Assembly: GCA_029891345.1 (NCBI GenBank)
Contig: CM056999.1
Coordinates: 30,047,418 to 30,111,417 of the forward strand
From: Dryococelus australis
Taxonomy: Eukaryota; Arthropoda; Insecta; Phasmatodea; Phasmatidae
Length of the DNA stretch: 64,000 nucleotides
Direction: 5' to 3'
Position 1 is the stretch's first letter. Each line of letters begins with the position of its first letter. Shown one piece after another: positions 29,545-53,520 of the stretch. A program made the position numbers and the translations under genes. The notes below the pieces were generated by a model, which made no database searches, was not told the origin of the DNA, and worked only from the letters and a program-made list of their open reading frames with translations.

Positions 29545-29658
29545 GCCAGGAGCGCTCTTGTGATCGAACAGGTAGACGTATGTGGAGTGTGGGGACCACC
29601 TGATCTGCTGCATCACCGTCTCGTACATAGGGAACACGAACTCCATGTCCGACTGCAT
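29508..29658 (-). CDS. carboxylesterase, third-last coding exon
   Basis: A 151-base exon of the esterase gene. It reads MQSDMEFVFPMYETVMQQIR, then STYVYLFDHKSAPG and SMVTAADDLPG, where the last G codon is completed by the next exon. S-D-x-x-F-x-x-P followed by V-Y-L-Y/F-x-F-D-H is the usual run of a carboxylesterase between the acidic catalytic residue and the catalytic His. The acceptor is most likely tttggctgcag|ATG (an alternative AG six bases further in would drop M-Q). Donor: CCTG|GTGCGTATG, phase 1. The last 39 bases are the template of the 88-bp array that follows in the intron. Earlier exons were not recognised in the window. The frame is intact. Confidence 0.92.
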
Positions 29659-30184
29659 CTGCAGCCAAACACCACACACCACACTGCCTCTGCACATGAC
29701 CCACAGCTGATTCGGACTCAGGAACAAAATTTTTGGGCATTCAATATCATAGACTAAAATATAAACTCAGTGTGTAGTGAGACAATATTTCCTCAGAAAA
29801 TAATTTTAAAAAAACTTGAATAGTTATGCTTGGCCGAAAATGTACATTACTGTAAAACACACTTTGTTGGTTACATAAAGTTTTAAGTGTATCAAAAACT
29901 GATTTAATTTATACAATAAAATATATGCTGAAATACTCTACTCGAATTTACAAAACTTGCGTGAATGCATTGTTGAGCACAAAGTCAGTGGAATAGAGGA
30001 AAGGATGAGAGAGTATGAGACATAATTGGTAATAGGGCTAAACTGAATCCTGGAGTGAGAGGAAATAGATGGGGTGGGGATGATAACATATAATATATAA
30101 TATTTTTACAAGACACCAGAAGCGTATCGGAGTTAGTGAAGGATGGCGTTTTTAATAAAAATAAAAGAACCATATTTAATTTGT
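29659..30184. other. upstream intron side of the esterase, no recognised feature
   Basis: It follows the acceptor of the esterase exon on the minus strand, so it should be intronic. CA-rich sequence lies directly beside the exon. Nothing else seen. Confidence 0.5.
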
Positions 30185-30694
30185 AATTTATTTATAATGG
30201 TATAAAACACACAAAGTTATTGTTTTCAACACTATACTTCCTATCACCACTATAAACTGTTGTTATTCTCAGTCATCGTGATAGTTAATTTATTTATAAT
30301 GGTATAAAACACACAACGTTATTGTTTTCAACACTATACTTCCTATCACCACTATAAACTGTTGTTATTCTCAGTCATCGTGATAGTTAATTTATTTATA
30401 ATGGTATAAAACACACAAAGTTATTGTTTTCAACACTATACTTCCTATCACCACTATAAACTGTTGTTATTCTCAGTCATCGTGATAGTTAATTTATTTA
30501 TAATGGTATAAAACACACAAAGTTATTGTTTTCAACACTATACTTCCTATCACCACTATAAACTGTTGTTATTCTCAGTCATCGTGATAGTTAATTTATT
30601 TATAATGGTATAAAACACACAAAGTTATTGTTTTCAACACTATACTTCCTATCACCACTATAAACTGTTGTTATTCTCAGTCACCGTGATAGTT
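30185..30694. repeat. 102-bp minisatellite, five units
   Basis: Five head-to-tail units starting at 30,185, 30,287, 30,389, 30,491 and 30,593, each opening AATTTATTTATAATGG and ending near CAGTCATCGTGATAGTT. Units are almost identical (for example one AAAG/AACG and one CATCG/CACCG difference), so they arose recently. No coding content. Confidence 0.95.
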
Positions 30695-31655
30695 AATTTT
30701 TTTATTTCAATACTAATTAAATTCCTTATCACTGCCTCTGTATTGGTTACAGACATTTAATTCACACCCAATTTTATTTTTTACACATGTTCCATCCGTC
30801 TATTGCCATTATTTTAAATACCTGTCACTTACACTCTAAATTCGAATAAGTGGAAAACCACTGACTTGCTGTCAAATTAAACTTCTAGAATTACTGGAAA
30901 TGGCTCCACCTAGAATCGGTGGAAAACCACTGGTGTTTCAGTGTACCAATATCACTAACTGAACAAATGACATCAGACGAATTAAATAATATTTTTATAG
31001 AATTTTTGCAAATAATTACGAGAAATACACCTATTTCCGAAAGCATAATTTGGCAATGTGCAATTTAAATTATGCTTCTGGTGGCAGCGATTGAAACCCA
31101 CAGCTCCCCGCTTCCAACCTGTCCTTTTCTGAGATACCAAGTCGATGTTGATTTCAGAGAGGAAAATATATTACATATTAAACGTAAGTTAAACTACATG
31201 TTAGGCAATTCTTTTTCTATGTTAGTTCAGTTGGTATCATTACAATTGTTGACACAAATATTACGTATAAATGCACTCATTGCACCACATTTCCTGCAGT
31301 TTAAAACTCTAAACCGAACGCTATGATCGTTACGTGAAAACAAAATATGTGTGAAAAACGAAATGAATGACTAGTGTTTATGTTATACGGTAACATGATA
31401 TAGAAAAAGATCAATTTCATATTTAAAAATGTATATTTTATGTGTTTTATTAGTAATGTGACGTTATTTCATTTGATGTACCATTTTTAACTGAACCACG
31501 AGTCAAAACAAAATCATTGTAAATCAGCGAGCGAAATACTTTACAAATCAGTGTAAAATATCGCTGAATCAATATGTGGAGGGAAACTGGCATTTTTCTT
31601 TAATTCTTCACTTAAATAGATTGAAGTCACTGTTGAATAAGTTAGGCGGTGTTAA
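30695..31655. other. no recognised feature
   Basis: AT-rich sequence with short frames only. A possible exon was sought on the minus strand for the esterase 5' part; none was found. Confidence 0.4.
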
Positions 31656-34961: not shown

Positions 34962-35555
34962 TTGGAAAATACTGTATGCGAAATGGAGGAAACCATTGAA
35001 ATAACCCAGATGTCAACCACTGTTCACCAGGTAGCTGAGCATACAGACACAGCCAGTGATGCTGTACAGTCGTTCGAGACAGCAACAACGGAACAGCTGT
35101 TTCACCACCCTCACTTTCACAAAAAATCTGAGGCCCTAGAAGCACAATTGACAGAGTCAGTGCAAACTCAGCTAAGAGAAATGCATACCCAATCACAGAC
35201 TCAGCTGAGTGAGATTACGTAACAGCTGACAGAAACAGTTCAACCCCAGGTTTCGTTAGACGTAGCAGTCAATATACAACAGCTGGCGATGGAAGTGAAT
35301 ACAGAACACAGAGAGATTACGGAAACGAGGGAATTGCTGAAGAAAGTGAAAATGATGTGCACCGTACAATTTAATGAGGTCGAACAAAGAATAAACAGGC
35401 TTCAATAAATAAACAGCTGCTACAACAGATCTAAAAATATTGAATCAGTTGGTCACAGAGAAAGAAATTCGAATCGCAAAACACACATATCAAACATCAA
35501 TTAGGACAAGCAGAGAAAGCGACAGTAGTACATGGGTAGCTTGAGGACAAGCTAA
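34962..35555 (+). pseudogene. gypsy 2 gag region, left part
   Basis: Gln/Glu-rich coiled-coil-like protein text (for example EALEAQLTESVQTQLREMHT) follows the primer-binding-like site. It has no catalytic motif; it is called gag by position and by the matching coiled-coil text that resumes on the far side of the Polinton at about 52,470. Confidence 0.6.
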
Positions 35556-35561
35556 TTTAAA

Positions 35562-36030
35562 CCCTAAGATCCACGATTTTTCATATGTTTTTCGTAAATC
35601 TACTACGTTTTTCCCAATAATTTCAAGCTTTTTCCTTTGAATTTCGAGCAAAAAATGCTCTCAAAACAGTCTCAAAAACACCCAAAAAAAAAAAGCACTT
35701 AAATTGCCAAAAACCACCAAAAACAAGCAAATTTTCAATTTTTCAAAAATTGGCATGCAGGATTAGGGTCAATCTAAATACATGCAAATTTCAAGCTAAA
35801 AACAAGCAAAATCAATAAAAAATAAAGCAAATTTTCAATTTTTCCAAAATACACGCTCAGAATTTGTGTTAATTAAAAAACATGCAAATTTAAGCTAAAA
35901 ATCAAACAAAATAAGCTAAAAATCAAGGATATTTTTTTTTTCCCAAAATACGCACTCAGGATGTGTGTTAATTAAAAAACGGCCAACTTTAAGCTAAAAA
36001 TAAACAAAATAAGCTAAAAAGCAGATGAAA
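35562..36030 (+). repeat. left terminal inverted repeat with internal repeats
   Basis: The outer part pairs with the right terminus. Inward it contains about three diverged units of roughly 100 bases sharing GCAAATTTTCAATTTTTC, ATACGC/ACACGC and AAGCTAAAAA motifs (starting near 35,727, 35,823 and 35,925). Confidence 0.8.
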
Positions 36031-36054
36031 TATTATTTTATTATTCATTATAGT

Positions 36055-36310
36055 TTATATTCGAAGCTCTATCGATTTTTTAAAAACTTCTTCAAATTGC
36101 TCTAGATTTTCACCTATTTCTCGAAATTCATATTTATCGCCAATGTTATCTAAGAGTAATAATTGAAAGTCTTGTAAATTCGAATGAAATTTGTGAACTA
36201 ATTCTCTTATTTCGTTTGATGCATTATATAATCTATAAGAAGAAGGCTTTGAACCACCACCACCTTTTAAAATGTTAATCAAACAACAAGGTAAAAGATA
36301 AGATTCCATT
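36055..36310 (-). pseudogene. small Polinton protein of unknown role
   Basis: A minus-strand reading of about 84 residues begins MESYLLPCCLINILKGGGGS and is rich in Glu, Leu and Phe after that, probably helical. I do not recognise the family. It is the outermost gene-like segment of the element on this side. Confidence 0.4.
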
Positions 36311-36849
36311 TTTATTTATGAAGAAAAATTTATTAAGAGAAAGAAAAACTCATTTACAATTATGAAAATTATCTTTTATTTGATGAAATAGATCATCCAT
36401 ACATCTAAAAATTTGTAAAAGTTTTAAAGGAACGAATTCAATATAAGACTGAAAAATTGTATTAAAATATTGAAACATTTTGATGTTTCTTCTATTTAAT
36501 AATATTTGAATTTTATATATCTTCAGTAAGTCTCTCTTTCAAATAATCATAAGTTAAATTCCTTTGGCTGATAAAAATAATTTTCAGGTTGTTCCCACTC
36601 CAACAGCCCTATCAAAATCAACACTAATTTTTATATTAGTTTTTTTTTTAACTACAGTTGTTTTTCTATATACGCAATCAATAATATACATTGTATTCGA
36701 CCCCAAAATAAATAATAATTGGAATTACCACCAAAGTTTAAAGCCGGCTTATAATAAAGTTAATTATTTCTACATACAGTACCTAATTTTGTTTTAAAAT
36801 TTCGAAAATCGTTATAAGCAATAAATGCTTTACCACAAAAATTATTGCC

Positions 36850-37700
36850 AATATCTAGATTACAATTTTCTTTTGGAAAAATTACATTTCTTCCATTTTT
36901 AACATAATATTTCGTACAGTAAAATTACAAAATCGGGCATTTCAAATTGCAAATTATTAAACTGGTCTTTTATATCAAAGTTAGAAACTGTTGATACAGT
37001 AGGAACTTCTTTTTCTAAAAAGTGCCAATAATCAAAACTAATGTGTATTTTAGGGTTTTTGTATATTTTTTATTTAATAGCAACGGCTGTGTAGTATTCG
37101 ATAATAGGCTATATAATTTCTAATTTTTGAATAACATTTTTACCTGGATCAGCATAATCTCTCTCAAGCGAGTCATCTTCTTTCTTTTTTTTTTGATAAA
37201 CAAACAATTGTTATGAGATGAATTACGTATAAAGGTAAATTTATAGCCACCTTTCCAATAAACTTCATTGTTATCATGAATAAAACCAAACAGATATCAA
37301 AGAGGATAGAATATTTCATTTGGTTTAACACTATGAGTAGCTTTTACCCTATAATAATCATCAACACTACTTAATTCTAAATAACTTTGTTCATCTGGAG
37401 ATCTTAACAAAGTATGCATCACTGTTGATGTTATTCCTGTATTATAAAAAGCTTAAATAATACGTCCGTGTTTTCAGATTGATACTCTAGAAAACTGAAA
37501 TAGAAAAGTTAGAACAAACATCAATATGATCTGCTTTATCATATATTACCTCACTTCCATCTTTATCTCTCTTTAGTAAACGAAATGGTTAGTAAACATA
37601 AGCATCATTTGGAAAAGAAAATCCCATCGCCTAAAGAATATCAAATTCAATTATATTATTGTAAACATTTAAATTTCCCCTAGTTTGATCTGTTGAGGGA
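36850..37700 (-). pseudogene. probable major capsid (double jelly-roll type) region
   Basis: The minus strand carries GSEVIYDKADHIDVCSNFLF, NTGITSTVMHTLLRSPDEQS, KATHSVKPNEIFYPL, WKGGYKFTFIRNSS and, nearer the end, NGRNVIFPKENCNLDIGN. The string 'DHIDVxxNFLF..xFSRV' then 'NTGITSTVMHTLL' resembles the early part of hexon-like capsid proteins of Polintons and adintoviruses. The call rests on this resemblance and on the element's need for a capsid gene; I cannot run a structure search. Fossil. Confidence 0.55.
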
Positions 37701-38079
37701 AAAGTTTGTCTGTTAAAGATCTCAATAATTTTATAAACTTATTTAGAAGAAAAAAATATATATAAATGAAAAATTCGAAGAACGTTTCTCGACTGAAATC
37801 ACTCATTGAAACATACAGAAATTATAAAAAGCATCACGAGGCAGGGTACGAAAAAAAAAAAAAAGAAAGATATTCCCTTAATTGACGAAATACGAAGAAA
37901 AATTGGTAAAAAAGAAAGAATGTATAAGTGAAAAATAAAAATTCAATATATACATTATTTCCTGTAGCAGCAAAAAAATTAGATTATTCACCAACACCAA
38001 AAAAAAACATCATTTGAAAGAGAATTATTCTCAAAATCTCCTTATTTATAAGAGCACATGGGTTTTGTACCATTGAAAA

Positions 38080-38770
38080 ATTTGACGCAGTAGGCGTCTG
38101 CTTCTGCTATAAATCTCGGAAAAGAAATTTCAGAAAGAATTAATGTTTATAAAAAACAATATGGTTTACGAGGAGATGGGCATAATTTTTACATTGGGGA
38201 TACAAAAGTAATAATGCATGATGATAAACTAATTGTTAAGGATACAGAATATGAATTAACAAGTGCTTTATAATTTGTTAACAAAAATAAACAATCAACT
38301 CTTGAAGGCAAATACACAAATAATGACTATGAAAATTACACAGAAATGATGTTATCAACCAATGCCGCATTTCAAGAAAATAATCCTAATAAAATGGTAG
38401 CTTCGAGTGGAAGTTGAAAGTACAATAAAATCATTAAACCGATTTATGATAATTAAATAAAACCACAATTAAGATCAGTGCCAAACAAACCCAAAAGAAT
38501 GATATCTCCAAGATCTCCTATATCTGGAGAAGGAATAAAAAATACAAATTTTTGCCGAATGAATATATTTGGATGAACGATGCTAGAGAATTAATTAATA
38601 GCTTGTTAGTTATACACGGTGAAAAAAATGTTGGAAAGAAAATTTTTTGCAATCAAAAGTAAACATAATGAATATGATGAGCAATAAATTTTCTAAACTT
38701 GTTGTTAATAATCCCAAAGGAATTCCATATCTTAAAAGAGTTGTAAATGTAATTCCTCATTAATTTTGGA
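38080..38770 (+). pseudogene. Polinton structural-type protein of unknown role
   Basis: Plus-strand text contains YGLRGDGHNFYIGDTKVIMH, KDTEYELTSAL and RMISPRSPISGEG, followed by ARELINSLLVIHGEKNVG. The middle part resembles proteins common next to the PLA2 and core genes in insect Polintons, for which I know no function. Confidence 0.4.
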
Positions 38771-38801
38771 ATTCAGAACATTATTGTAAAGGTTTTATAA
38801 T

Positions 38802-39122
38802 TTGGGCTTTAACAATTTAAATTGGCCTGAAATGCATTTTCCTGGCTATAATTATTGTGGTCCATTTACAAATGAAAGATTAGAAAAAGGTGACACAGGA
38901 ATAAATAAATTAGATGAAGCCTGCAAGCAACTTGACATTGCTTATAGAGATGATACAGATTTAGAATCTAGACATGAAGCTGAGAAAATTTTACGAAAAG
39001 AAGCTAAGGATATTATGCTATATAAAAATATTCCAATAGGTGAAAAAAATTGCTTTGTTGCTGTTGCTTCAAGTATGTTTACAAAAATAAAATTCAGTTG
39101 GGGTATTAAAATTTGTCATTAA
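38802..39122 (+). pseudogene. parvovirus-VP1-like phospholipase A2 domain
   Basis: The plus-strand reading contains FPGYNYCGPFTNERLEKGDT followed by INKLDEACKQLDIAYRDD. The pattern G-P-x-T/N ... N-x-x-D-x-x-C/A-x-x-(H/L)-D-x-x-Y is the calcium loop and active-site helix pattern of the PLA2 domain in parvovirus VP1. PLA2-like proteins of this kind are also known from adintoviruses. In those viruses the enzyme helps particles escape endosomes. The position beside the core-like and protease genes fits a virion protein. Part of a broken element. Confidence 0.8.
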
Positions 39123-39143
39123 TCATATATTTTTTCTATATAA

Positions 39144-39530
39144 ATGAAGATAAAAAATTTAACTTTTGATATAACCATTGATCAATTAAGAAGTTTGGGT
39201 ATAGATAAACTTTTAACAAAAGATCAATATGAGAGAACATATAAAAATTTGAAAGTGGGTAGAGGTTTCTTATTAGCTTTGTCAGTACCAATACTCAAAA
39301 ATTGTTTAAAGAGAACACAGGACGTGGTTTACATCGTGGAGGATTTATACCACTTTTATATGCCATTTTAGGTGCACTTGGTGTTTTAGTTGGTGGAGTC
39401 AGTGCAATTTATAACTCTGTTGAACAAACTAAAAAAAGAAAAAAGAACTAAAGAACAACAGAGATATAATTTAGCAATGGAAAATAAAGCAGGAAGTGGT
39501 TTAGTTACAAAAAAAGAGGACGACCAAAAA
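39144..39530 (+). pseudogene. small basic core-like (adenovirus pX-like) protein region
   Basis: It starts MKIKNLTFDITIDQLRSLGI and is followed by basic and glycine-rich text, then a hydrophobic LYAILGALGVLVGGVSAIYN and a lysine/arginine-rich tail with KKRGRPK. A short hydrophobic Gly/Ala segment with basic flanks is typical of the small virion proteins found beside PLA2 in adintoviruses. Confidence 0.6.
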
Positions 39531-39559
39531 TAATTTGAATGTATCCCCATGATTAAGTA

Positions 39560-39900
39560 TCGATATTTACGAATATGTGAAAAGACTAAATACTAAAATT
39601 GTTATAAATGTTAATATGATTGACGAACTACCAAATAGAATGCTAGAAATTAGTGTGCTGTTGTTAATTTTGACATTTCGACAAATCCTGGTACTCATTG
39701 GGTTTGCTATTTTAAAGAAAACGATGTTTACTATTTTGACTAATTTGGAGGAAATATTTCTACTAATTTAATTAATTACTTCAAAAACAGAAATGTTTAT
39801 TACAATGATAAAAGAATTCCGAACTCTGATTCAGTTATTTGAGAACATCTATGTTTAATAGTATTACTCGTTTTTTCGAATGGTTTTAAGTTTAATGGTA
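39560..39900 (+). pseudogene. adenain-like cysteine protease region
   Basis: Plus-strand text shows NPGTHWVCYFKENDVYYFD, then STNLINYFKNRNVYYNDKRI and HLCLIVLLVFSNGFKFN. The H-W block, the tyrosine-rich Y-Y-F-D block and the later C/H-L-C-L-x-V-L-L block follow the order of adenovirus-type (C5) maturation proteases, which Polintons and adintoviruses carry. Fossil. Confidence 0.75.
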
Positions 39901-39989
39901 TAATTTCCTTGATAGTCAAAGTCAGATGTATTTGTAAAACTATTAATCTTTAAATAAAATCTTTGACATTAATGTTTATGCTTTAAAAA

Positions 39990-40682
39990 CATGTGTAGAT
40001 TCACAATGCAATTCGGGTGTTTCTGCTTTACAAAGTAAACTTAGCACTTGTTTTGATTATACAAAATCTTGTGTTTCTTTTTTAGGATATAGAGTTGTTA
40101 ATATAGATGATCCGAAAGACGATAATGATGCAATCAATAAAATATTTTTAATAAATAAATAGTTTATTATGTTTTAAAAGAAGATATACATTTACGATTC
40201 AGTAATACTATTGCCAATTATATAAAATTGATAAATGATACAAAAAAGATATTTTAAAAAATATGTTTCAAATACACAATACTATTGTTTCGGACTATGC
40301 ACTAAAAACATATGTGAAATCAATATACAATATTATTGTTTCTGCTTTACAAGCTCAACTTAGTAATGTTTTTGTTTATAGAACAGATTATGTTTATATT
40401 CAAAATCGTAGAATTAATAATATGACTGATTCCGTAGATGGAAAAGATTCGGTCAGTAAAATATATCTTGATAAAGAAATAGCTGATAAATTAACCAATT
40501 TTAAGAAATCAGTTCTCAATTATTGTGATACACTTGTTAACACAAAAGTTGAAAAAAGCATACAAGATTTTGATAAAGAATTAGTTATTAAATTGCAAAA
40601 TTTAAACCGTAAAGTTGAAAAATGTAAGGAAGAAAAATCTCATATATTTCATTTATGTGGAAAGTGGAAAAAAAAAAAATAA
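39990..40682 (+). pseudogene. fibre-like protein region with repeated N-x-x-D-P motif
   Basis: Two similar stretches occur: GYRVVNIDDPKDDNDAINK (about 40,090-40,146) and NRRINNMTDSVDGKDSVSK (about 40,407-40,463). This 'R-x-x-N-x-x-D-P-x-D-x-x-D-A-x-x-K' motif is familiar from phage and adintovirus fibre- or spike-like proteins. The segment after it is Lys/Glu-rich and probably coiled-coil (FDKELVIKLQNLNRKVEKC). Function inferred. Confidence 0.5.
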
Positions 40683-40921
40683 TGTTTTTTGCATAGCCAA
40701 TGATGTAAATTTCTTTTCTTTTTAAATGGATTGTACTGTTTATAAAATAATTACTGATAATTTACCTGATGATACTATGGCAGTTATTAAGGGAACTACA
40801 AAAATAGATATCGGTAAGCCTTTTTAAGTTAATAGGGGCGAGTTTTAAACTTTAAAATTAAAAATAAATAAATACTTTAATTGTTTTGTTAACGGAATGT
40901 TGCCTAAGTATTCGTAAAATG

Positions 40922-40924
<3 letters not shown>

Positions 40925-41019
<95 letters not shown>
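40925..41019. repeat. (TA)n microsatellite inside the Polinton
   Basis: About 95 bases of TA between the fibre-like and integrase regions. Confidence 0.93.
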
Positions 41020-41020
<1 letters not shown>

Positions 41021-42010
41021 TATTAAATGGAGACTAATTTGTGTTTGAAGTGCATGAAAGTCACCAACAATAATAATACAAAATATGAAAAGTAAATGTT
41101 CTATATGTAGTTCCAATAAATCAAAATTTAAAAAATGCCCAATGAAAGAGAAGAAATAATCAACAAATTATATAAACCAGCAAGAAGAAATTTTCCAAGA
41201 AGAAAAGTAATTTCGTATGGAATTTATGATTTATGGCAAATTGATCTTGTTGAGATGGATACTGGTAATATAAAGGCATATCACATATAAATAATGGATA
41301 CAAGTATATTATGACTATTATAAATGTTTTTCAAAACATCTATAAAACATAAAACAGTCAAAAATGTAACAAATGCTTTAGAATGTATATTGATAAAAAG
41401 AAAACCACTTCATATACAAAATGATGCTGGTTCAGAATTTTGTAATAAAATATTTAATGACCTTATGCAAAAATATAATATCAATCACTATTCTACATTC
41501 AGCAAACTTAAAGCCAGTATTGTAGAAAAATATAATCATACAATGAAGATTAAAATGTGGAAAAAATTTGCTTTAAATGGCAATTATAAGAGTGCGTAAA
41601 TATATTAAATGATTTCGTAAAAGAATAAAACAATACCAAAAGTAGAACCATTGGTATGAAACCAATTGAAGTTAATAACAAAAAATGAAAAAAATTATGT
41701 CAAATATATATGATTACTGACTGAACCGAAATATAAAGTTGGCGGTATTGTCAGTGTGATAAAAAATAAACGATTTTTTTTAAAATGGTTATACTCCTAA
41801 TCGGAAAACAGAATTATTTACTATTTCGGAGGTTTTAAATTATGGTGTACTCACTTACAAACTGATATATATCATTGGAGAAGAAATAAAAGGCAGTTTT
41901 TATGAATACGGAATTTCGAAAACTAACTATCTTGATGAATATTTGGTTGAAAAAGTTTTAAAAACTAAATGTAATAAAATGTATGTAAAATGGTTAGCTT
42001 TCCAGAATTA
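41020..42010 (+). pseudogene. Polinton integrase region (with chromodomain-like end)
   Basis: Key text: RRNFPRRKVISYGIYDLWQI then DLVEMDT (first catalytic Asp of the DDE core), HIQNDAGSEFCNKIFNDLM (second Asp), and KASIVEKYNHTMKIKMWKKF (catalytic Glu). Toward the end GEEIKGSFYEYE and KCNKMYVKWLAFPE suggest the C-terminal chromodomain common in this family. It inserts the element's DNA into the host genome. Fossil. Confidence 0.88.
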
Positions 42011-42097
42011 AAATAACTCTTGGATTAATAAAACAGATGTTTTGTGAATTTGAAAATTAAATCTAGAAAATATAATATTAAAATAAAAATTAGCTTC

Positions 42098-42570
42098 TTA
42101 CTCAATTCGATTAAGAATATTAATCGCATTAATCAATTGATGTTGAGTATAGTTATTTTTAGAAATTCTAAAATAGTTACAAAGACACACAATGTGACCA
42201 TTCAATGTTTCTTTCACTCTTTGATATAAATGGATAGAATTTGGAATATAAGTAAATCTCAATAATTGTTCACAATTGGGATGTTTATCTTCAATTCTAT
42301 TCAACTGTCTTTGATAATTTTTTTCATTGAGTTCTAATGACATAATAATCATATTTACAACCCTCAACAAATTATTTTAAAAGAACGAAAATTTGATATA
42401 AATTTTTATTTTGTGTTTGTTTCTGGGAGCTATTACATCTAAGGCCATATAAACTGTCTCTCTTAAATTTTCCACACGTTCATCATGTATTCTATTTATA
42501 TCTCGTAAATGGTTAACTTTAATTTCATTAATTTGTATATGCTCTATTTCACCTTGGTATAAATACATTA
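42098..42570 (-). pseudogene. helical Polinton protein, C-terminal side of BRO-like gene
   Basis: Minus-strand text contains EIKVNHLRDINRIHDERVEN and NYQRQLNRIEDKHPNCEQLL, then QLINAINILNRIE. The first part is helical and charged; the second resembles the C-terminal half of BRO-type proteins (viral nucleic-acid-binding). It continues from the BRO-N domain at 42,560-42,880 on the same strand, so it is probably the same gene. Confidence 0.45.
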
Positions 42571-42890
42571 TATCTTTTGAATCTTATATTCGCCATGTTT
42601 TCTAATTGATGAAATAACTTCTTCAAATATCCATGTTTTAAAAACCTTTGCAATTTTACAAAGCGAACTAAAAATAAGTTAATATTAACCTGGCTCACTA
42701 ATATAAACTGCTTTGCCTTTGTTGTAAGAGAGGTGGCATGAATTTTTCATCTCACCTATTTCTGTTAAAAGTTTCTTATATTTAAATGAAATTAATTTTT
42801 TAACATGTCTTTTGGATTAGAATATTCTAAAATTTCACCAAGATCTTTTCCTTTAAACCATGGATTATTTTCCTCAATAATTATAAAAAT
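42560..42890 (-). pseudogene. BRO-N domain region
   Basis: The minus strand reads SSLCKIAKVFKTWIFEEVIS then SIRKHGEYKIQKI (about 42,565-42,665), a textbook match to the BRO-N pattern 'S-x-x-x-A-x-x-F-x-x-W-x-x-x-E-V-x-P-S-I-R-K-x-G-x-Y'. Upstream text (TTKAKQFI, NPKDM, WFKGKDLGEIL) fits the start of the domain. BRO-N is a DNA-binding domain widespread in baculoviruses and other insect DNA viruses and also found in some transposons. Fossil. Confidence 0.8.
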
Positions 42891-43006
42891 TTATTTATCA
42901 TTCTAAATAAGTTTTTTTTTTAATTTATGTCTAGAATTGACTCCATTTTTATATGCGAAATTAGCACAAGTGAAATTTGCGAGTAGTAAATATGTTTTTT
43001 GTAAAG

Positions 43007-43314
43007 AACATAGATTAGATTCATTGATAAATATATCCTTTGGCTGTGTGTTTGAAAGTGTCCCTTTTTTAGGAACACCTTTAAGATTCGAAAATTTATG
43101 TTTGTCGTAATTATCAACAATATAGTTTCATTAACAATTATTGGTTGCATATTTAAAGGGCTGGGCAAATTTCTTCATCTTTATATTTCTATATAATTGT
43201 CTATGATAGGAAATAAAAAAGTAAAGAAAAATAAAATCAATGAATATAGATCAGATTCTTTGATAAATATCGTATTAGATTGCATATTTAAAAGGGGGAG
43301 CAATTCGCTCCTCC
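43007..43314 (-). repeat. duplicated gene-start module with small hairpin
   Basis: Two minus-strand segments share TTTAAATATGCAA followed by text coding IFI-N/K-ES-N/D-L (copies near 43,010-43,165 and 43,236-43,300). The second copy is preceded by a GGGGGAGC-aattc-GCTCCTCC hairpin at 43,294-43,314. It looks like a local duplication of a promoter plus gene start. Confidence 0.5.
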
Positions 43315-43339
43315 TTATATATTCATAAATGGTTTTGTG

Positions 43340-43800
43340 TTTTTCTGTAATTATATAGCTCTTAAGGATTTACGTTTTCTAATTCATTAACAACATCTTT
43401 CACTTTATGTAAAATTTCGTTATATGATTCACACTTTTTACCAAAGAATGAAATGTTATTTTTACCAACTCAAGTCAATTTCATTGTAAATTCATTATAT
43501 TCGCAGAAAGTTTCGTTGGTAAAGAAATACAGTAAACCATTTGTGTATTTAAAAACAGACTCTTACAATATCTGGCAAATGAGGAAATTTCTTGCTAATT
43601 AGGCATTTCTCTTTCATTTGGAAACGACATTCGTCTATTTCAGCATAATATGCCTTATCATAGAAGGAAACAGTTTTTTCCTAATATGAATTAAAACCAG
43701 CATTTATTTCGTATTTATCAATTAATACAAGCAAGCAAAATCCCGTTATTAGGATGATAACTTGGATAATCAACCATATACATTTATCACCAACCAACAG
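43340..43800 (-). pseudogene. Polinton protein of unknown family
   Basis: Minus-strand text includes YPSYHPNNGILLACINKYE, YAEIDECRFQMKEKCLISKK and FPHLPDIVRVC. It is clearly old coding sequence, but I do not recognise the family. It lies directly downstream of the metalloproteinase-like region and could belong to the same or a separate gene. Confidence 0.35.
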
Positions 43801-43929
43801 AACTAACCCACCCAAAGCTTTTTAGTATATTAAAAAATTGAAATCATTTGGTAAAATGTGAACCATTCTGTTATCAAAAATGGTTTGTTAATTATTTTGT
43901 TTTCATTTTACAAGACTATTTTTTTTATT

Positions 43930-44400
43930 CGAAAAAAAAATGCATGTCCTAGTACACTACCATATGGAAAAAATTTAGTCTGACAAACTCCTAGTAATCT
44001 CTATCTATGTTGACCTCCTTTCTAAGATATAAGTATGTCTGGAAATTCCATGTCATAAGCAAATTTCAAATCTGTGTGTTTTTGCCAAATGTTAAAAGCC
44101 TCTTCAGCTAATTTTGTAATTGATTTATTTGAATATGCAAAATTCCATTTAGATATTTTTTATTCAATTTGTTGGTTGTTGAGTAGCTGCCGAGTACATT
44201 GCCTTCAACAGCACATCTTGGCTTATTGATTAAATTAATCATTTCTTCATCGAGTTTACCATCAATTAAAGGAATGTTATGATATTCTTCAAATATTCTT
44301 AAAGGATTTTCGAACTTTTCAGTACAAATTTTTTAAAGTGAAGTTCCATCACCCTTTAGATATCCATATTCATTAAAAAATATGGCAACATATTCTGTTT
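43930..44400 (-). pseudogene. matrix-metalloproteinase-like region (propeptide and start of catalytic domain)
   Basis: Minus-strand text runs FFNEYGYLKGDG, ENPLRIFEEYHNIPLIDGKL, DEEMINLINKPRCAVEGNVL, then KWNFAYSNKSITKLAEEAFN with IWQKHTDLKFAYDMEFPDIL and later FPYGSVLGHAFFF. This matches a matrix metalloproteinase block by block. First comes the propeptide ('YL.. .GYL', 'A-I-x-x-F-Q-x-x-x-x-L-P-V-T-G-x-L-D'), then the cysteine switch P-R-C-G-V, the first catalytic strand and helix ('A-F-x-x-W-x-x-x-T-x-L-x-F ... x-D-I-x-I'), and the G-x-L-G/A-H-A-F-F-P block. It sits on the same strand as BRO-N, ATPase and polymerase, well inside both terminal repeats. MMPs cleave extracellular matrix and basement membrane; some granuloviruses carry one. 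Fossil. Confidence 0.8.
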
Positions 44401-44719
44401 GATTTTCTTTTTTGGACAGCACAAAATTAATTCTTGTGATAGTGAGAATGATTATGTAAACAAACCTTCATTTTTATACAAAAAATTTTAACAGGACAAA
44501 GAAATCTTTCAAAATTTAAATATTCAAAGGTCAATTGAATTAACCCCAATCAACATTAAAAAAATTACAAAATGTTTACAGACAAGTTAATGTCACGCTG
44601 AGGACCTGTTTATTTTTTGGGTTTACAGATATTTCTATTGTGCCATGGGATCCAATTTTTCTGGCCTTTTTTAGCTCCTACAAAACTCCATTATAGAGCT
44701 TCCCCACTTCACCACCGGC

Positions 44720-45200
44720 CGGCCATTATTTTTTATATATTTTTTTAGTGGTGAAGTGGAGAAGTTCAAATATATATTTTTTATTTCTAGTACTCACCAT
44801 ACTATGTGGCACCTTACACCATACGGGGAATACACCTTTAATTTTTACATCTGCTGCTCATATATTTATATATGAGCACAAGCAAGTGAAGTATTTTAGC
44901 TCAAATTTGGAATGACGACGCAGAGCATGCTTTACAATTGCTATTTTTCCTGTAGCCAGTAGACAGTGTGGCCATCGGCGAAGTAGATAAAGAATTGTCG
45001 TATACAGTTAAGACAGAGTTAGAATAAAAAATCACCAATAATTTCTCTGTACTTCTCATTATTCATTTTTCTATTGAAATCTAAAGTGATAAAACCATAT
45101 GCTTGATTCTAACAGTTTGAACAGATCTCTTTAAATGTCTCATAAGTCCTATCCCCACTGACTCAATCATTATAAATGTGTTTTAAGTCCACGCCACCTT
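44720..45200. other. Polinton internal stretch without clear gene
   Basis: Between the metalloproteinase-like and ATPase regions. Contains GC-richer segments such as CACCACCGGCCGGCC near 44,710 that differ in composition from the rest of the element and could be a small insertion. No gene recognised. Confidence 0.35.
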
Positions 45201-45695
45201 CTCTAAATAACATTGAAAGTTCATGTTGTCTCTCACCGATTGCTTGGGCACTTTCGAATATGTTTGTGACAAATAAAATATATCAATATTGTTGTGCCAT
45301 CCTCTAGTGAAATATTTACAAATAACATCCTGATTTTCTCAAATGACATCATCAAATATAACTAGAAACTCTTTTCACATTGATATGAGGGAATTATTTC
45401 ATCATTGTTATTTTAAAAATATGCCAATTTTTTATTAAACTTGTTGGCTATCACATCAAAATCATTTTGTAGCTGAATATATTTGGGTTAGTTTATACTT
45501 TTTGAAAAAACATGGGATTTATTAAAATTTATCATCCCATCTTACAATAAAATGTATCATCCAGTTGTTTTTCCACAATTGCTCAGACCAACTATAATTG
45601 CTCTTATATTGCCAGGCAGTAATTCGCCAATCTTTTTTTTCTTCGCATCTCCTTCGGAAATTAAAACACCAACACCCCAATCAACTTTTTTCATC
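45150..45695 (-). pseudogene. packaging ATPase (FtsK/HerA type) region
   Basis: The minus strand reads GELLPGNIRAIIVGLSNCGK followed by TT: a Walker A motif G-x-S-N-C-G-K-T-T, as in Polinton and adenovirus-like genome-packaging ATPases. Further on, NNNDEIIPS and text for 'FDDV', a Walker B-like block, and 'GRHNN-DIFY' fit the same family. It would pump DNA into the capsid. Fossil. Confidence 0.85.
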
Positions 45696-45829
45696 TAATA
45701 AGAAAATTTTTGATTAATAAATGGACAGTAAAATATTTAAGTTAACAAATAATAGTTCTGTACTAAAGAATTAACTTTACTATGATATAATTCACCAAGA
45801 TAAATAACTTGCTTGAATATTTTTCAATG

Positions 45830-46465
45830 GAAATTTTTATCTCCTAATATAGACAATAATACTATAATGACAATTGAAAAATTAAGTGCAGTCATTGGGA
45901 AAAAATTAAGTTATAACCATTCCAAGAAGCCAATGTGATATTGAATCATAAAAAACAAATTATAAGTTCAACTGAACATTTTTCAACTAGTAAAATCGAA
46001 TTAACAACATACAGTATGAAAAACAGAATATTTATTAAATCTATTTTTGATATTAAATTTGACCACCGACTATCTGATAATTTTGGTTTTGAGAGAAATA
46101 TGGCTATTGAAAAAGAGAAAGTTGTCATTGTTACTAAGTTACCTAATTTTGACCTATTTAAAAAGATAAATGTTTATTGTAATTTAGCATATGGGATGTT
46201 TATAAAATATGATTAATCTAATAATTTAGAAACAGGCATTATTGATAGTTTTCCACCAAAATGATGTTTCGTTTTAGAGATTATATTTTCACAGGCCATC
46301 ATAACCAATTTTTATAGAAAAAATAATTAATGGTTTAATTAGATTGTTTTAGAAATCAGTGACGAAAATGGTAAACTAATTGATTTTGATGGTTCTGATA
46401 TTGATATTGTTTTGGAAATTAAAGATGTTAAAAATAAAATATATAAGTATTATACTATAAAATAA
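45830..46465 (+). pseudogene. probable penton-like minor capsid region
   Basis: Plus-strand text contains INVYCNLAYGMFIKYD, GIIDSFPP and LEISDENGKLIDFDGSDIDI followed by VLEIKDV. The ending 'V-D-x-N-G-x-L-I-D-F-x-G-x-x-I-x-I-x-L-x-L/I-K' is a conserved end of a Polinton/adintovirus protein thought to be the penton-type minor capsid protein. The role is from family knowledge as I recall it; the match itself is clear. Confidence 0.6.
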
Positions 46466-48584
46466 TTTCTTTTGTAACCCCATGGTTATATATCTATATT
46501 CCATTCAAAATCATGCATTTTTCATAGTCAAAATTAAATTATTTTGCCATAAACTTTTTTCATTAGTTTTTTCCTTATCTCTTGTAATCATATTGTTTTT
46601 TATAATCACATTTTCCTTAGTTTTTGTACCAATTCGCCCATCGATTTCATGTTCAATTGTAAAGTATTTTCGTGATTTAGAGTGAATCCTTTAATTTTGT
46701 TAACTGGTTTCCCTAAAAAATTTCATACCCATTACTTTTTGGCCCAGTACTAATCCAATTTATACTATAATCGTTCTTTCCAAACTCGTCTGTTCATTCA
46801 CCAAGCATACAACCTGTTTTAACTCTATTTATACCATCATCAATGTATATTACGCTATCTGTATCATAATATACTACTTTATAACCTAATTTATTTAACA
46901 TTTCATGTAAATGTAATCTAGCATTTGAAGTAGTAAAAGTTGCTATAATTATATATTTGTTGCAGTGCTCACTTCTACATAATTATCGTATTTATATTAC
47001 AATTCAAATATTTTATCATTGATGTAAATAATATTATTTATTTCTATTCTATCATCTAATTACTATTCGTACCAACGAGTTGGATCAGTGATATATTCTG
47101 TTTATGTAAAATTTTGTCTCTGTCCAAATTTTCCCCAAAGTGAATTTAAACAAATTTTGGCAACAGCACATTTCCCTGGATTTTGTTCAATATTGTCAAT
47201 GTTTAAATCGATATTTTGTTCTTTTTATAACATGTATACATTCTTCTTTTTATTTATAATCGTATTCCCAACAACAAGTTTCTGATTTTATTTTCATAAA
47301 TGTTTTAATATAATTTATGTTATTACTTCTTTGCTCGAAATGCCAAAATTAATAAATTCTAAGAAGTTTGTAACCTTTTTCGATAGCTCTTTCTTCTTCG
47401 CTATGTTTACTTTCTTCTTTTTTCTCTACAACACATTTTGAACATAAAGTAAACAATAGTTTTTCTTGCTTAATATGTAGTACTGGATGATATAAATTTC
47501 GTGGTGGTAAAAATTTACGTATGATCAATCAAAACCAATTTTCGTCGTAATTTTGGGATTAAATATTTTAATTGGATGACCTACTCGATAATAATAATAA
47601 TAAAACATTACTGTCGGATACAAACTACACATACACACATATATATATATATAATTTTTCTCCTGAAACTTTTAATTTTGCAGCATTTGTTCTACATCCA
47701 AAAAATTCATCTCTAGGTTGTAGTGGCTCTATTACATTTTTAGTTTTTCCTAAATTATTTTTGTAGAAAATCGATTTTTTTCCCCATTTACAAGCCCACA
47801 TTTCCCTTACTTTGTAACCTTTTTGTCTTAAAATTGTCGTTCGATTGTTTGTTTTAGTAAATAACTTATCCATACTTTCACTGTAGCATTCATTTACAGT
47901 GTCAAGAAAATAACATTCAAGAAAACCATGTTCAAACTACTATGATATTGATATATTGGTATTGTTTTTTCGTCATAACCATCAACTTTTACTCCACAAA
48001 TAATAACTTATCAACCATTTTATGCATGTAGAACATTTGGAGACGTATTTAACCACAAAAATTGATTATTTACTAAAGATTTCATTTTATCATCTTTATT
48101 TACAGCAATAGTATTATTCATAAGAAAATTTGCTCTATGAACAGCCAAACAAACCCCCGCTATTGTTATGTAGCAAAATGGATCTATATTTGCTATTTAT
48201 AGAAAATATTCTCTAAATCTAAGACAACCATGCCGTAAAATATTATCATCAGGATCATAATATTCAGCAAGCACTTTTTTGAAATAGAAAATATAATTTT
48301 CTCTTACTCTTTCAGCATGTCATTTTAAAAAGTCTTTTCGTTGTTCTTGTTTCACTGTATTAACCCCATAATATTTTGTAGTAAACATTTTTCCTACATA
48401 ATTTGGATTTTCTGGTGTATTAAAAAAATTTGTGGAAACTATCCTTTTTTTGGTTCTTTTAGCCCAAATGTTTTTTGAAATGTTGAAAGACCTCCTTGAA
48501 CGAAGTTCATAATATCAATTATTTAGATATTTAGACTCGATATTTTATGTTGAATAATTTTTTTGCCTTTATATGTAGTACTAG

Positions 48585-49175
48585 CGGCCCAGCAAGTGGC
48601 CTTTTTTTTGTATTGTCATGTACCTAGAACAGTTATGATGTTACAAATTTTTGTTACCATACAAAGACTGAAAAAAAAAAATGATGTGAAATGAACTCAA
48701 CATTGGATATAGTTTTTTCCACTAAGCCACTGCGGCCCCACTTGAAATCGTTCTTTCCACTGAGCCACCAAGGCCCCAATTGGAATCATCTATCCACTGA
48801 GCCACTAAGGCTCCACTTGGAATCGTTCTATCCACGGAATCACTGTGGCCCCCCTTAATTAATTCAACTTTGAAGCAAGACATTTAAAGTAAACAAAAAT
48901 GATATTCCATTAGCTTCATATCTCTATGCAAAATTCTCTATGCATAATACAAAACTTTTCATGGGGAAAAAGTTATTTAAAAAATGAGTTTTTAGGGTAA
49001 AAAGCAATTATTGCTTAACCTTATCTTGCTGAAATTCGAACTTGACCTGTGTTTTACCCTGAGGATTCGCTCTGCAAAATTTGAAGAATTTCTGTTGAGT
49101 TTCAAGGGACTTACATGTATTAGAGACGGACAGACAGGCAGACAAGAGATCGTCTACTTATTATATAGGATGAGG
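48585..49175. mobile_element. small element inserted into the Polinton polymerase region
   Basis: This stretch interrupts polymerase text and is GC-richer than its surroundings. It begins near TACTAGCGGCCCAGCAAGTG and ends near GACAGACAGGCAGACAAGAG followed by TTATATAGGA. Insect repeats with 'ctagcggccc' heads and 'gacagacaga...tatatag' tails are common non-autonomous elements, but I cannot name the family. It contains the 38-bp repeats at 48,719-48,870. Confidence 0.6.
48719..48870. repeat. four 38-bp repeats with tRNA A-box-like core
   Basis: Four diverged units opening CCACTGAGCCACTAAGGC. On the minus strand the core reads GTGGCTCAGTGGATAGA, close to a tRNA/SINE A box. No B box was seen. 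Confidence 0.75.
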
Positions 49176-51119
49176 TTTTATACTCTTTCTAACATAATAT
49201 TGTAAAATAAAATAAGAATCGTAGCCTTTAGAATTATGTGCGATAAATGATTATCCTTTATTTTCTTCAGATAATGCCCATTCGCAAAACTCATCATTTG
49301 TTTTAAAATGCCTTTTGTTACCATGAAAATCTTTAACAGATATAAATTTTGGTATGTGAAAACCAGTATCTTGTGTGGCTTCGTAGTCAAAAATAGTAAT
49401 ATATTTCAGTGTAAGAACAATCCATATTTTTTTCTTGTTTTCGCCATTACAAGTACAATAATTTTACAAAACCACCTTTTTGTTGTCTCGCTTGCATATA
49501 ACATTTATGTTCATCAGTTTTCACAAATTCCTTACAATTCCAACATTTGGCCTAACCACATTTGTGTCTTTTCAGTTCTCAAACATATTTTGTTACACGT
49601 TTTACACTTATAAACAGTCTTTACATGCATCATCGTGATTTGAAAAACCATCTTTTCCGAAACAATATCTATTACATTTTTCGCAATATAGTCTATAATT
49701 CGATCTTCATCTTCCCAAACTTTTTGTGTTGTGGTTTTTTACACAAAGTACATATATTTTTATTATTTTTCCCACACTCGTGTTGATCTTTTTTATTGTA
49801 AGGTTTGTCACTACCTAAAAATGCTTTTATACTATTAATTACATCGTAATGTTCATCGTGTAAATACAAATAAATAGTTATTGTTTTTTTTTAACCAGAT
49901 TTTATAATTAAGTTGAAATGTGTAGCTGAAACAACTTTAATTTGAACATTCAGAAAATTTTATGCATCCATAATATCTTCCAAACTGAAAACAATTTCGC
50001 AATTTTTTCCCATTCTTTTGCAAAGTTCACGACCTAATTCTCCTTGAAATTTTCTTCCTTTTCTAATATACATAACCTCATTATTCGTTAATTCTCTATT
50101 CGAAATTATATTAGTTTCGTATGATAAAGCTGTAATTATTGCACTGGGCCCACATAAATTATCATCATTTGTAATTTTAGTAGTACATTGTTTTGGGTTT
50201 TATATCTTTATATCGACAATTATTTTTTAGGTCTATTTCCTCTTGGGATTTTGTAAACATCTATGTAAAAAGTAATTTCATTTATGTCTACATCTTCATT
50301 TGATGTCATTATTCTCTCAATTTGACTAAGTAAATTTTCGGCGTTTAAATTGTCATTTCTTTTCGCTGAAACTGTATGGTGAAAATTCTGATTATTTGCG
50401 TATATTCTTATTTGTTCACCTTATTTATAACCAGTTAATTTTTGTACTACTTTCATTGTCGCATAAACAGCATTTCGAACAGCATTCATTTTTCTATCGA
50501 ATTACATTGTAAATTATTTATACGAATACCGTATTTTGTTTTCCAAATGTTGAAGTCTTGAATTAAATTATGGCTAATCTCACGAATTTCGAATGGAATT
50601 TTCTTTTCCACTCGCTCGTTAAAAGTGTTTTTTTTTTAAAGGAAAAATTTGACCTAAATTTTTATCTTCTTCTCTAATTTCGAGTTTAGAAAAAGTTAAA
50701 TTTTTTAAATTACGACTACTTTTGTGTTTTGGTTTTAAAAATATCTGATTAGAAAAATGGAATTTTTAAAAGTTCTTTTTTAGCTTTAATTTTTGTCATT
50801 TTATAGCCAGAAAGGGGCAAGTGTGTAAAATTGTTCCTTGTTTTCAATTTTTCAATATTTTTTCTGACTATTCGACTTTGTATAATGCTTGTACATAATT
50901 CATATGTTCTTAAAATACCAAAATTTAATTTTTAAATCTCTACCCATAATTCATAATTCGCTCACTCTCTTCTCGCGCAACTCAACAGCAAGATTGTTCG
51001 CTGACATTTTAACTTTATTTAGTAAGAAAAAAATTAATTATAAAATAAAAAAATAAAAAATGAGTATAATAAAAATAATGGAATAAAATAGAACAAGGGA
51101 TTAGATTATTATTAATAAC

Positions 51120-51770
51120 GATATCGTTTTTAACTAGGTAACTCCTTGTAAAGACTATAATTCTTGAGATATCCACTAAAACATTTATGTTTGGCCTTAC
51201 AATTTTAATTATAATAAAATATTTCTTTGTTGGGTAATTATCATGATGAATTTCATTTAGAATACCTACTACTGTATTGTGCTATTTACTGTTTTTATGC
51301 TTTTCGAGTTGAGTACTCTCTGTTTTTAAGGCATAGTATTTTTTACCATATTCACTAAAACAAGTTTGATATGTTGTAAGTTTGTCTAAAGTAGCCTTAT
51401 GAGGATAAAATGAATCAATAGGTTTTTTTTATCTTTACATACTATGCATGTCTTAGTTGAATAATCATCATGTTGAATTTCATTTAGAACATCTAAAATG
51501 TGTTGTGTAATTTAGTATATTTATGCGTTTCAAGATTGGTCATAGAAACATATTTTCCACATTTGCATAGTACTTTCTCTTTTATTTTAGGGTATAACGA
51601 GTTCTATCATATTCTCTATAACACTTTTTACAGGTGCTAATATGCTTATCTTTTGTGTGTTTGTTTGGTGAAAAATTTTATATGTTTAATACTTCGCCAC
51701 ACCTTTTACATTGCTTACATATGGTATTATTTTCCATTTCGTTAGATAGTGACGATTTCATTTTATTTAT
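51120..51770 (-). pseudogene. zinc-finger-like small Polinton protein region
   Basis: Minus-strand text contains HISTCKKCYREYDRTRY, CKCGKYVSMTNLETHKYTKL and later 'EIQHDDY..KTC.VCKDKK'. The C-x-C-G ... H-x-x-x-x-x-H spacing suggests a C2H2-type finger, and similar text seems to recur within the segment. Role unknown. Confidence 0.45.
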
Positions 51771-51954
51771 AAGGCCAGAAATTTATTACGAAAAATGTAT
51801 TTATAAATTTTTTCTTTGTAAATTACAAAAAACAAAATGGAGTCTCTGCTCAACAAGTTGAACAATTCATTTTAATTAACTAAATTATAAGTTCTGGAAA
51901 AAAAACTAATTATTTCCTGCTACAGATTTTCAAATTTATGAATCTAAATTCGGT

Positions 51955-52091
51955 AAAAAAAAATGTATTGTGTTCTAGATGGTGAATATAAGATTACATT
52001 ACCAGGTCGATATTTAAAATTTTTTGATAAAAATGCTTTAAAATTAATAAATGAGAGAGAAGTTTATATAGTATATAAAGGTTTAAAATAA
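51955..52091 (+). pseudogene. short conserved-looking Polinton segment
   Basis: Plus-strand text includes DGEYKITLPGRYLKFFDKNA and LKLINEREVYIVYKGLK. It looks like real coding sequence near the right terminal repeat. Family unknown. Confidence 0.35.
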
Positions 52092-52149
52092 ATGAAAATG
52101 GAAATTTTATGCATGATGAGTTCTCATAAAATCTATAAATTCTATTAAT

Positions 52150-52457
52150 TTGAATTGTTTTAATATTTCATCTACTTTTTAGCTTTTTTTTTTAGCTTAA
52201 ATTTGCTGTTATTCAAATTACACAAATCCTAAGCATGTATTTTGGAAAAATTTGAAATTAGCTTGATTTTTGGATGATTTTGTTTGTTTTTAGCATAAAA
52301 TTTGTATGTTTTTTGGTCATTTTGGTGCTTTTTTGGGTGTTTTTTTAGACTGTTCTAATGGCATTTTTTGCTCGAAATTCGAGGAAAAAAGCTTGAAGTT
52401 ACTGGAAAAAATGTAGTAAATTTACGAAAAAACGATGGAAAATCGTGGATTTTAGGG
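52150..52457 (-). repeat. right terminal inverted repeat of Polinton fossil 1
   Basis: Reverse-complement partner of the left terminus. The outer 130 bases pair clearly (TTCGAGCAAAAAATGC, CACCCAAAAAA and ATCCACGATTTTT blocks), and the inner part has one or two of the left side's internal units. Confidence 0.85.
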
Positions 52458-52463
52458 TGTAAA

Positions 52464-53520
52464 TTGGCTTCTCCGCTAGGTACCCATATACTACTAGCGA
52501 CAGCCGTTAAACTATCTAAGGTATCTGATAAAGTAGATCAGCTAGCTCAGGTTGTGGAAGGGGTAAGATACCTTCACTTGGGCATGAATGAGCTTGACTG
52601 TGGGGAAGTGTAAACCTTAAACGTCAGAGTACAATACTGACTGAACCTAGAAGTAGTGCAATAATTGCAGAAGAAAACACTGCACTAACTTCAGCTGTTA
52701 CACTGGCGATTACGTCCATTATTACATTACAACACCACCTATCGAAAAATTTGGCGGAGCAATTGTTCAAATTCGAGGGAAAACCAGGGGAAAATCCAAT
52801 TAATTTCATAATAAAATTCGAGGAATACTCAGTACTGTTTGGTTTGGGTGATAATGACACGCTGAGATGCCTTAATCTTGCGCTTACTTATACAGCTTAC
52901 TATTAATAGGAAGTGACTAACAGCACCACTACATCGTATGTAGTATTTAAGAGAAACTTTGTGGAATGTTTTTAGAATACAAAAGTAGAGTCCAGCTCCA
53001 TGCTGAGAGGTTTACCCCAAGCCGAGGTCGCCGCCTAGAAGTTCATATTTCGGAGGTTTATGAGATGTCGCGCCATCTAAACCAACCGATTAGCGACGAG
53101 GAGTTTATGGCAACGGTTTTATTGCAGCTCCTTTATCGCTACCAAACACACTGGTCAGGCCGAAGGGATACTAAAATTGTATCATCCCGCGAGGCGTTGT
53201 TAGTATTTGATCAGATTGAGAAGATGCAGAGGCAACAGGCTATCAGGGAAGAAGACAAGCCTGGTCCCACAGAGCGACCACCGCCGCTGTACGCCGGAAT
53301 CCAGCCTAATCAGTATAGGGGAGGTTTTCGACAGAATATTAATAGCTACCCCAGCGTCGAGCATTTCAAGTGGACTGTTAAGCACCAGATTCGCTAGGTC
53401 TTGGATTACATCAAATAAATAGCCAACACTCTTTTAGGGGGAGGAAGTATTACTCAGGAAGGAGAGGTCGAAGGACCCGTGGACACTGCATGGATCGTAA
53501 GAAGAGGTAACATCAAGAAG
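52464..53520 (+). pseudogene. gypsy 2 gag region, right part
   Basis: Coiled-coil text resumes (AVKLSKVSDKVDQLAQVVEG), followed by capsid-like text: FKFEGKPGENPINFIIKFEE (about 52,767-52,826), the 'F-x-G-x-P-E-x-x-x-x-F-I/L' entry seen in gypsy capsids, and EYKSRVQLHAERFTPSRGRR. Fossil. Confidence 0.75.

Follow-up and report, generated by a model that had tools for sequence, protein, structure and literature searches.

A decayed matrix metalloproteinase gene in a stick-insect Polinton/adintovirus-type provirus and its recurrence in two element lineages

Matrix metalloproteinases (MMPs) are animal genes. Polintons have capsid genes, and a life outside the cell is hard to show for them. Among insect DNA viruses, the granuloviruses (betabaculoviruses) carry an MMP, the mp-nase, which is described in passages of PMC4500397 as proposed to degrade basement membrane. 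According to part of a meeting report (PMC10680173), nematode Mavericks carry and spread a wosp protease and a krma kinase as cargo, so such elements do carry host-type genes. The earlier note on the DNA studied here knew of no description of an MMP as Polinton cargo. The absence of an earlier record is not supported, since the nr database already contains a TPA entry, 'collagenase [Ladona dragonfly adintovirus]', of the same protein family. The founding adintovirus paper (Starrett et al. 2021) lay outside the literature searched, which yielded no account of an MMP in Polintons, Mavericks or adintoviruses; the adintovirus preprint PMC11071296 contains none of six terms related to MMPs, and metalloprotease or collagenase wording is absent from the portions of PMC8363768, PMC12567637 and PMC11071308 covered by the search. 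An adintovirus 'collagenase' is thus known as a database record, and what is unexpected is how widely the MMP is retained. Its breadth and its retention over two element lineages appear to be undescribed in that literature.

The window, the whole stretch of 64,000 nucleotides that was analyzed, comes from the 3.4-Gb assembly of the stick insect Dryococelus australis (Phasmatodea). It contains a whole Polinton/adintovirus-type provirus of 16,972 bp, whose ends start with AGTAGTA and whose inverted terminal repeats, with outer ends at 35524 and 52495, are 75-84% alike. Both flanks carry a perfect 6-bp target-site duplication. These terminal repeats and the duplication indicate a whole Polinton-type insertion, by now decayed, and the integrase, capsid and packaging ATPase genes are further hallmarks of a Polinton/adintovirus. 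The genes were mapped by tblastn with proteins of two loci of the same genome, L009 and L013; the latter is a locus of a young element family and the source of a full-length MMP frame of 524 aa. The features of the provirus are as follows.

35524-52495, no strand: whole provirus (terminal repeats, target duplication)
35518-35523, no strand: left target-site duplication AGCGAC
52496-52501, no strand: right target-site duplication AGCGAC
36522-37726, minus: double-jelly-roll major capsid gene, broken (tblastn with the L013 capsid, E 8e-89)
37778-39113, plus: virion protein with a phospholipase A2-like domain, broken (tblastn E 2.7e-34)
39144-39503, plus: homologue of the small protein p129 (tblastn E 4.6e-15)
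39517-39947, plus: putative capsid-maturation cysteine protease (tblastn E 4.2e-27)
41147-42044, plus: retrovirus-type integrase, broken (tblastn E 1.5e-57)
42101-42746, minus: BRO-type gene (DUF3627 at 42101-42376, 2.7e-07; counterpart pieces in locus L081)
43368-44449, minus: decayed MMP, zinc-site region missing (tblastn E 1.4e-24 and 7.3e-21)
45025-45691, minus: packaging ATPase, broken (tblastn E 1.7e-48)
45727-46423, plus: putative penton/minor capsid gene (tblastn E 8.4e-18)
46797-46982, minus: family-B DNA polymerase fragment (phrog_1907 DNA polymerase, 3.8e-07; PF00136 only 0.084)

The L013 homologues of four of these genes matched Pfam families: PF21738 for the capsid (1.1e-27), PF08398 for the phospholipase A2-type virion protein (3e-12), rve for the integrase (2.1e-11) and Pox_A32 for the packaging ATPase (8.1e-06). 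No Pfam family was matched by the L013 proteins that correspond to p129, to the gene at 39517-39947, which we take to encode the capsid-maturation cysteine protease, and to the gene at 45727-46423, presumably a penton or minor capsid gene. The window also contains two tandem arrays, at 28304-29659 and 30082-30807, with units of 88 and 102 bp and copies mostly 96-100% alike.

The MMP was found where the earlier note had placed it, between the BRO-type gene and the packaging ATPase, on one strand with both and deep inside the terminal repeats. The interval given there, 43930..44400, does hold the MMP but is too narrow, as the 524-aa L013 frame traced remains over the full 43368-44449 by tblastn. 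Residues 28-199 of the L013 protein matched 44449-43935 and residues 335-522 matched 43901-43368, both on the minus strand, and the remains include a hemopexin-type C-terminus. Residues 200-334, which contain the HExxHxxGxxH zinc site (237-247), had no tblastn counterpart in the window. Three minus-strand open pieces, 44111-44332, 44025-44159 and 43911-44000, represent the propeptide, the start of the catalytic domain and a part ending in GHAFF. The reading of a propeptide with a cysteine switch followed by a catalytic-domain start was therefore borne out, with NKPRCAVEG inside the first piece; the switch reads PRCAVEG in the window copy and PRCGVPD in L013. Pfam profiles gave too little signal on four bare pieces to decide the matter: 44025-44159 scored 16.1 bits with Peptidase_M10 (E 0.011), short of the cut-off of 24, and PG_binding_1 matched no piece. 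Homology is strong against the full-length relative from the same genome, whereas the bare pieces stay below the Pfam cut-offs. Frame changes, stops and the missing zinc-site region mark the window copy as dead, one from which an active enzyme could not be made.

The architecture of the protein can be read from intact relatives, which have a propeptide with a PRCGVPD switch, a HExxHxxGxxH catalytic domain and a four-bladed hemopexin domain. The full young-family MMP of L013 matched PG_binding_1, Peptidase_M10 (3.2e-33) and Hemopexin PF00045 (2e-07) in Pfam. The zinc-site residues were invariant in 20 of 20 aligned family members and the switch cysteine was present in at least 90%; the zinc site and the Met-turn occur in both L013 and L081, in the stretch that is missing from the window copy. 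The best PDB sequence match of the L013 protein was 1su3 (E 6.7e-39), and Foldseek also matched its predicted model to this proMMP-1 structure (E 1.2e-28). Domain by domain, the model agreed with 4in9 for the catalytic part (TMt 0.87) and with 1itv for the hemopexin part (TMt 0.84); the whole-chain TM-score to proMMP-1 was 0.31, owing to the uncertain relative placing of the domains in a model with a pTM of 0.53. By eye, the protein has an apparent signal peptide and no apparent membrane anchor. Sequence and model thus both assign it the build of a secreted, zymogen-type pro-MMP, and its domains and homology identify it as an MMP of the animal type. It shares domain plan and fold with animal secreted MMPs such as MMP-1/collagenase.

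Whether the gene belongs to the element can be judged from its recurrence in the genome. In a search with the window propeptide piece, 150 of 1478 candidates were scored, which gave at least 149 matches besides the window, 50-73% identical to it; with the BRO piece, 150 of 2594 were scored, again giving at least 149 further matches. Counting the window itself, no fewer than 14 of the 150 propeptide places had a BRO match within 6 kb, compared with a random expectation of 0.07 on average and 2 at most (300 random shifts). In all 14 pairs, BRO was on the same strand and 3' of the MMP, 1.0-2.6 kb away. Among the 150 Peptidase_M10 places, at least two had BRO within 6 kb, both on the same strand at about 2 kb. 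The same-place recurrence proposed in the earlier note as a sign of capture by the element was seen in the same genome for the MMP-BRO pair, at 13 further places by coordinates and in two loci, L081 and L082, that were read directly. L081 has the order polymerase-penton-ATPase-MMP-BRO-integrase, matching that of the window, with ATPase, MMP and BRO on one strand and 69-77% DNA identity to the window over most of the shared stretch. Its MMP carries HEFGHALGLKH and matches M10 at 2.2e-25; its BRO is an open piece with Bro-N (2.6e-17) beside pieces matching window 42101-42746. L082 repeats the MMP-BRO arrangement, and the 870 bp available before its MMP contain no ATPase match.

Scoring 150 of 1850 candidates gave at least 150 Peptidase_M10 places genome-wide. 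Of these, 22 loci of about 10 kb, namely rows 3, 7 and the odd rows 13-51 of this list, all in the top third by score, were examined. The MMP directly followed the polymerase on the same strand in 21 of the 22, a ratio that does not give the share of elements carrying an MMP because the loci were high-scoring MMP matches. All 21 polymerase-MMP loci had an integrase match and a p463 match, and 20 had a capsid match, L067 being the one without. These elements form the young family, whose gene order and polymerase differ from those of the window element. Their MMPs are single open frames without introns. The whole frame was open in 10 of 18 young copies, a sample biased towards intact copies by its choice from the best M10 scores. 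Median divergence among the young copies was 0.96% (153 pairs) and the maximum 1.65%, which points to a recent expansion. The remaining locus, L069 (G000:C11:34136000-34145999), had MMP matches in three parts over 4.3 kb that resembled canonical MMPs, with a highest value of 73% in a part the size of an exon; its intron-bearing parts and canonical resemblance make it an ordinary host MMP gene, in contrast to the intronless frames of the elements. The MMP is thus carried by two lineages of elements with unlike gene orders and polymerases and recurs at matching positions in many insertions.

The possibility that a piece of a host MMP was inserted or trapped by chance, unrelated to the element, was tried and rejected. 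In its favor, the window copy is broken, its bare pieces are weak in Pfam and the host has an MMP of its own in L069. Against it stand the strong window homology, the 149 other propeptide places, the repeated MMP-BRO spacing, the polymerase-MMP adjacency, the intronless one-frame genes inside elements and a closer resemblance to viral-type than to canonical MMPs. No host exon-intron structure surrounds the window MMP, so the element-cargo view of the earlier note held. Recurrence inside elements refutes a chance host fragment, to which we give next to no weight, and the window gene is almost certainly an element-borne MMP gene.

The window polymerase region spans 46400-50420, and its pieces had no tblastn match to the polymerases of the host-genome loci compared, the young type included. 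L081 is colinear with the window through ATPase-MMP-BRO, but its polymerase (region L081:1-614) matches the young type at 38-68% identity; polymerases therefore appear to have been swapped in elements that kept their MMP. An alternative is that the window polymerase, now decayed, has diverged very far. In the same diverged loci (among L009, L011 and L060-L079), dS against the reference was 0.83-1.15 for the polymerase and 0.31-0.51 for the MMP, a gap that hints at recombination between element lineages. A second Polinton starts in the window, with an integrase at 59977-60440 and a polymerase from 61926-63737 on to L080:1076, and runs past the window end. Its polymerase is 28-45% identical to that of the young family. 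No MMP was present in the 2.9 kb of L080 after this polymerase, and an MMP is thus not shown in every Polinton of the genome.

Selection was assessed by dN/dS with L013 as the reference for 21 copies, and rows with dS below 0.03 were left out. The ratios were 0.22-0.44 for the MMP (11 diverged copies), 0.24-0.41 for the capsid (9 copies), 0.21-0.34 for the integrase (8 copies, plus one at 0.72) and 0.12-0.21 for the polymerase (11 copies, plus two young copies at 0.62 and 0.71), comparisons that share a single reference and are hence non-independent, with values raised by decay after insertion. They indicate purifying selection on the MMP at about the level of the capsid and the integrase.

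Protein relatives of the L013 MMP numbered 129 at 1e-10. The best 120, which were listed, included the Ladona 'collagenase' and gene models from Schistocerca, ants, fireflies, beetles and Rhodnius. Many others were metagenome proteins without a name, and canonical MMPs, from vertebrates and elsewhere, ranked much lower. Among these 120, 78 matched the window MMP stretch at 1e-3, of which 13 ranked 67 or lower. Piece by piece, the best matches of the window MMP were L081 and viral-type MMPs. For four of its five pieces, viral-type MMPs were clearly ahead of canonical MMPs, and the fifth (43911-44000), with nine matched residues, did not discriminate between them. Two quick trees were built, for which the groups had been defined in advance by the rank and name of each protein in the list of relatives. 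The first, of 73 proteins (72 from the list), separated 54 viral-type from 19 canonical MMPs by a branch with an SH-aLRT of 100 and joined L013, Ladona and Schistocerca in one nine-row group (SH-aLRT 96). The second, with 55 rows (53 from the list, L081 added), kept this split at 100 with all 37 viral-type rows on one side; L081 was not firmly placed, L013 grouped with protein P0001 at 95, and L013 and L081 as sisters were not rejected (p-AU 0.473). The element MMPs thus fall with the Ladona collagenase and apart from the sampled canonical MMPs.

The Ladona protein is 42% identical over 95% of the L013 MMP, has M10 and hemopexin domains and is assigned to an adintovirus. It comes from another insect order, the window-type MMP is more distant from it, and the likeness is drawn from the protein alone rather than from gene neighbours. 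An open 277-aa MMP piece of L081 retrieved 0 of 435 protein candidates at E <= 1e-20; this search thus revealed no close kin of the window-type MMP beyond the Dryococelus australis genome. IMG/VR contained no relative of the L013 MMP and none of the L013 capsid; searched with a 20-row MMP alignment, it gave 45 loci, every one a distant M10 protein whose best segments reached 23-51% identity. The capsid protein search returned only six proteins at 1e-20, none named adintovirus, a result that speaks neither for nor against shared descent with the Ladona virus.

Taken together, the window MMP is probably a dead copy of a secreted, zymogen-type MMP that is a regular gene of an insect Polinton/adintovirus lineage and may have a matrix-opening role. 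Infected cells would secrete the pro-enzyme, and its cysteine switch would open extracellularly. The active form might then cut collagen IV or other basal-lamina proteins and so let particles through from one tissue to the next, the role put forward for granulovirus MMPs. By this analogy, breaching the extracellular matrix is slightly favored as the main role. The parallel lies in a DNA virus of insects that has an MMP with a proposed basement-membrane role; granuloviruses are unrelated large viruses, and the two were likened by description. Nematode Mavericks are a parallel as Polinton/Maverick elements with a host-type protease gene, although their protease differs in type and role, acting in toxin-antidote elements and gene transfer between species.

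The MMP might instead act on the virus itself and mature or trim a virion or entry protein. It is kept in two lineages and constrained like structural genes, which would suit such a function, as would the fact that Polinton-type elements already use a protease to mature their capsids (putatively the one at 39517-39947). Against it stand the separate protease gene in these elements and the full pro-MMP plan, with a cysteine switch, a hemopexin domain and the signal peptide apparent by eye; we regard a virion-acting MMP as improbable. Still less credible, at a very low probability, is that the stick insect took over some of the copies for its own use. There are many copies, some with open frames, but those open ones that were examined have element genes as neighbours and differ from one another by about 1%, like recent insertions, and constraint is seen in the element's own genes too. 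More weight, though well short of an even chance, goes to independent capture of MMPs by the two stick-insect lineages or to transfer of the gene from one to the other. The different places of the MMP in the two gene orders fit this, as does the tree in which L081 is not beside L013 and the latter groups with P0001; the strongly supported single side for all viral-type rows and the non-rejection of L013 and L081 as sisters weigh against it, and a single origin of both lineages' MMPs is allowed.

On the preferred reading of a regular element gene, we tentatively propose, at somewhat less than even confidence, that an animal MMP was acquired once, long ago, became a lasting insect adintovirus gene, diversified across orders and outlasted polymerase replacement and gene reshuffling. 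The groups concerned are dragonfly, grasshopper, stick insect, ants, beetles and bugs. If this were true, insect Polintons would be viruses that have to cross tissue barriers, with a dedicated spread enzyme in their regular gene set. A secreted matrix-degrading enzyme suits mainly an agent that moves from cell to cell through tissue, so a constrained MMP in two lineages is indirect evidence of viral spread and suggests that these elements spread as viruses through insect tissue. They would provide a second insect DNA virus group, besides granuloviruses, for testing the basal-lamina hypothesis. For genome annotation, several insect collagenase- or stromelysin-like gene models may be viral genes. 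Two Dryococelus australis gene models annotated as hypothetical proteins, P0125 and P0126, contain Polinton capsid pieces, and some host gene models are therefore chimeric with element sequence.
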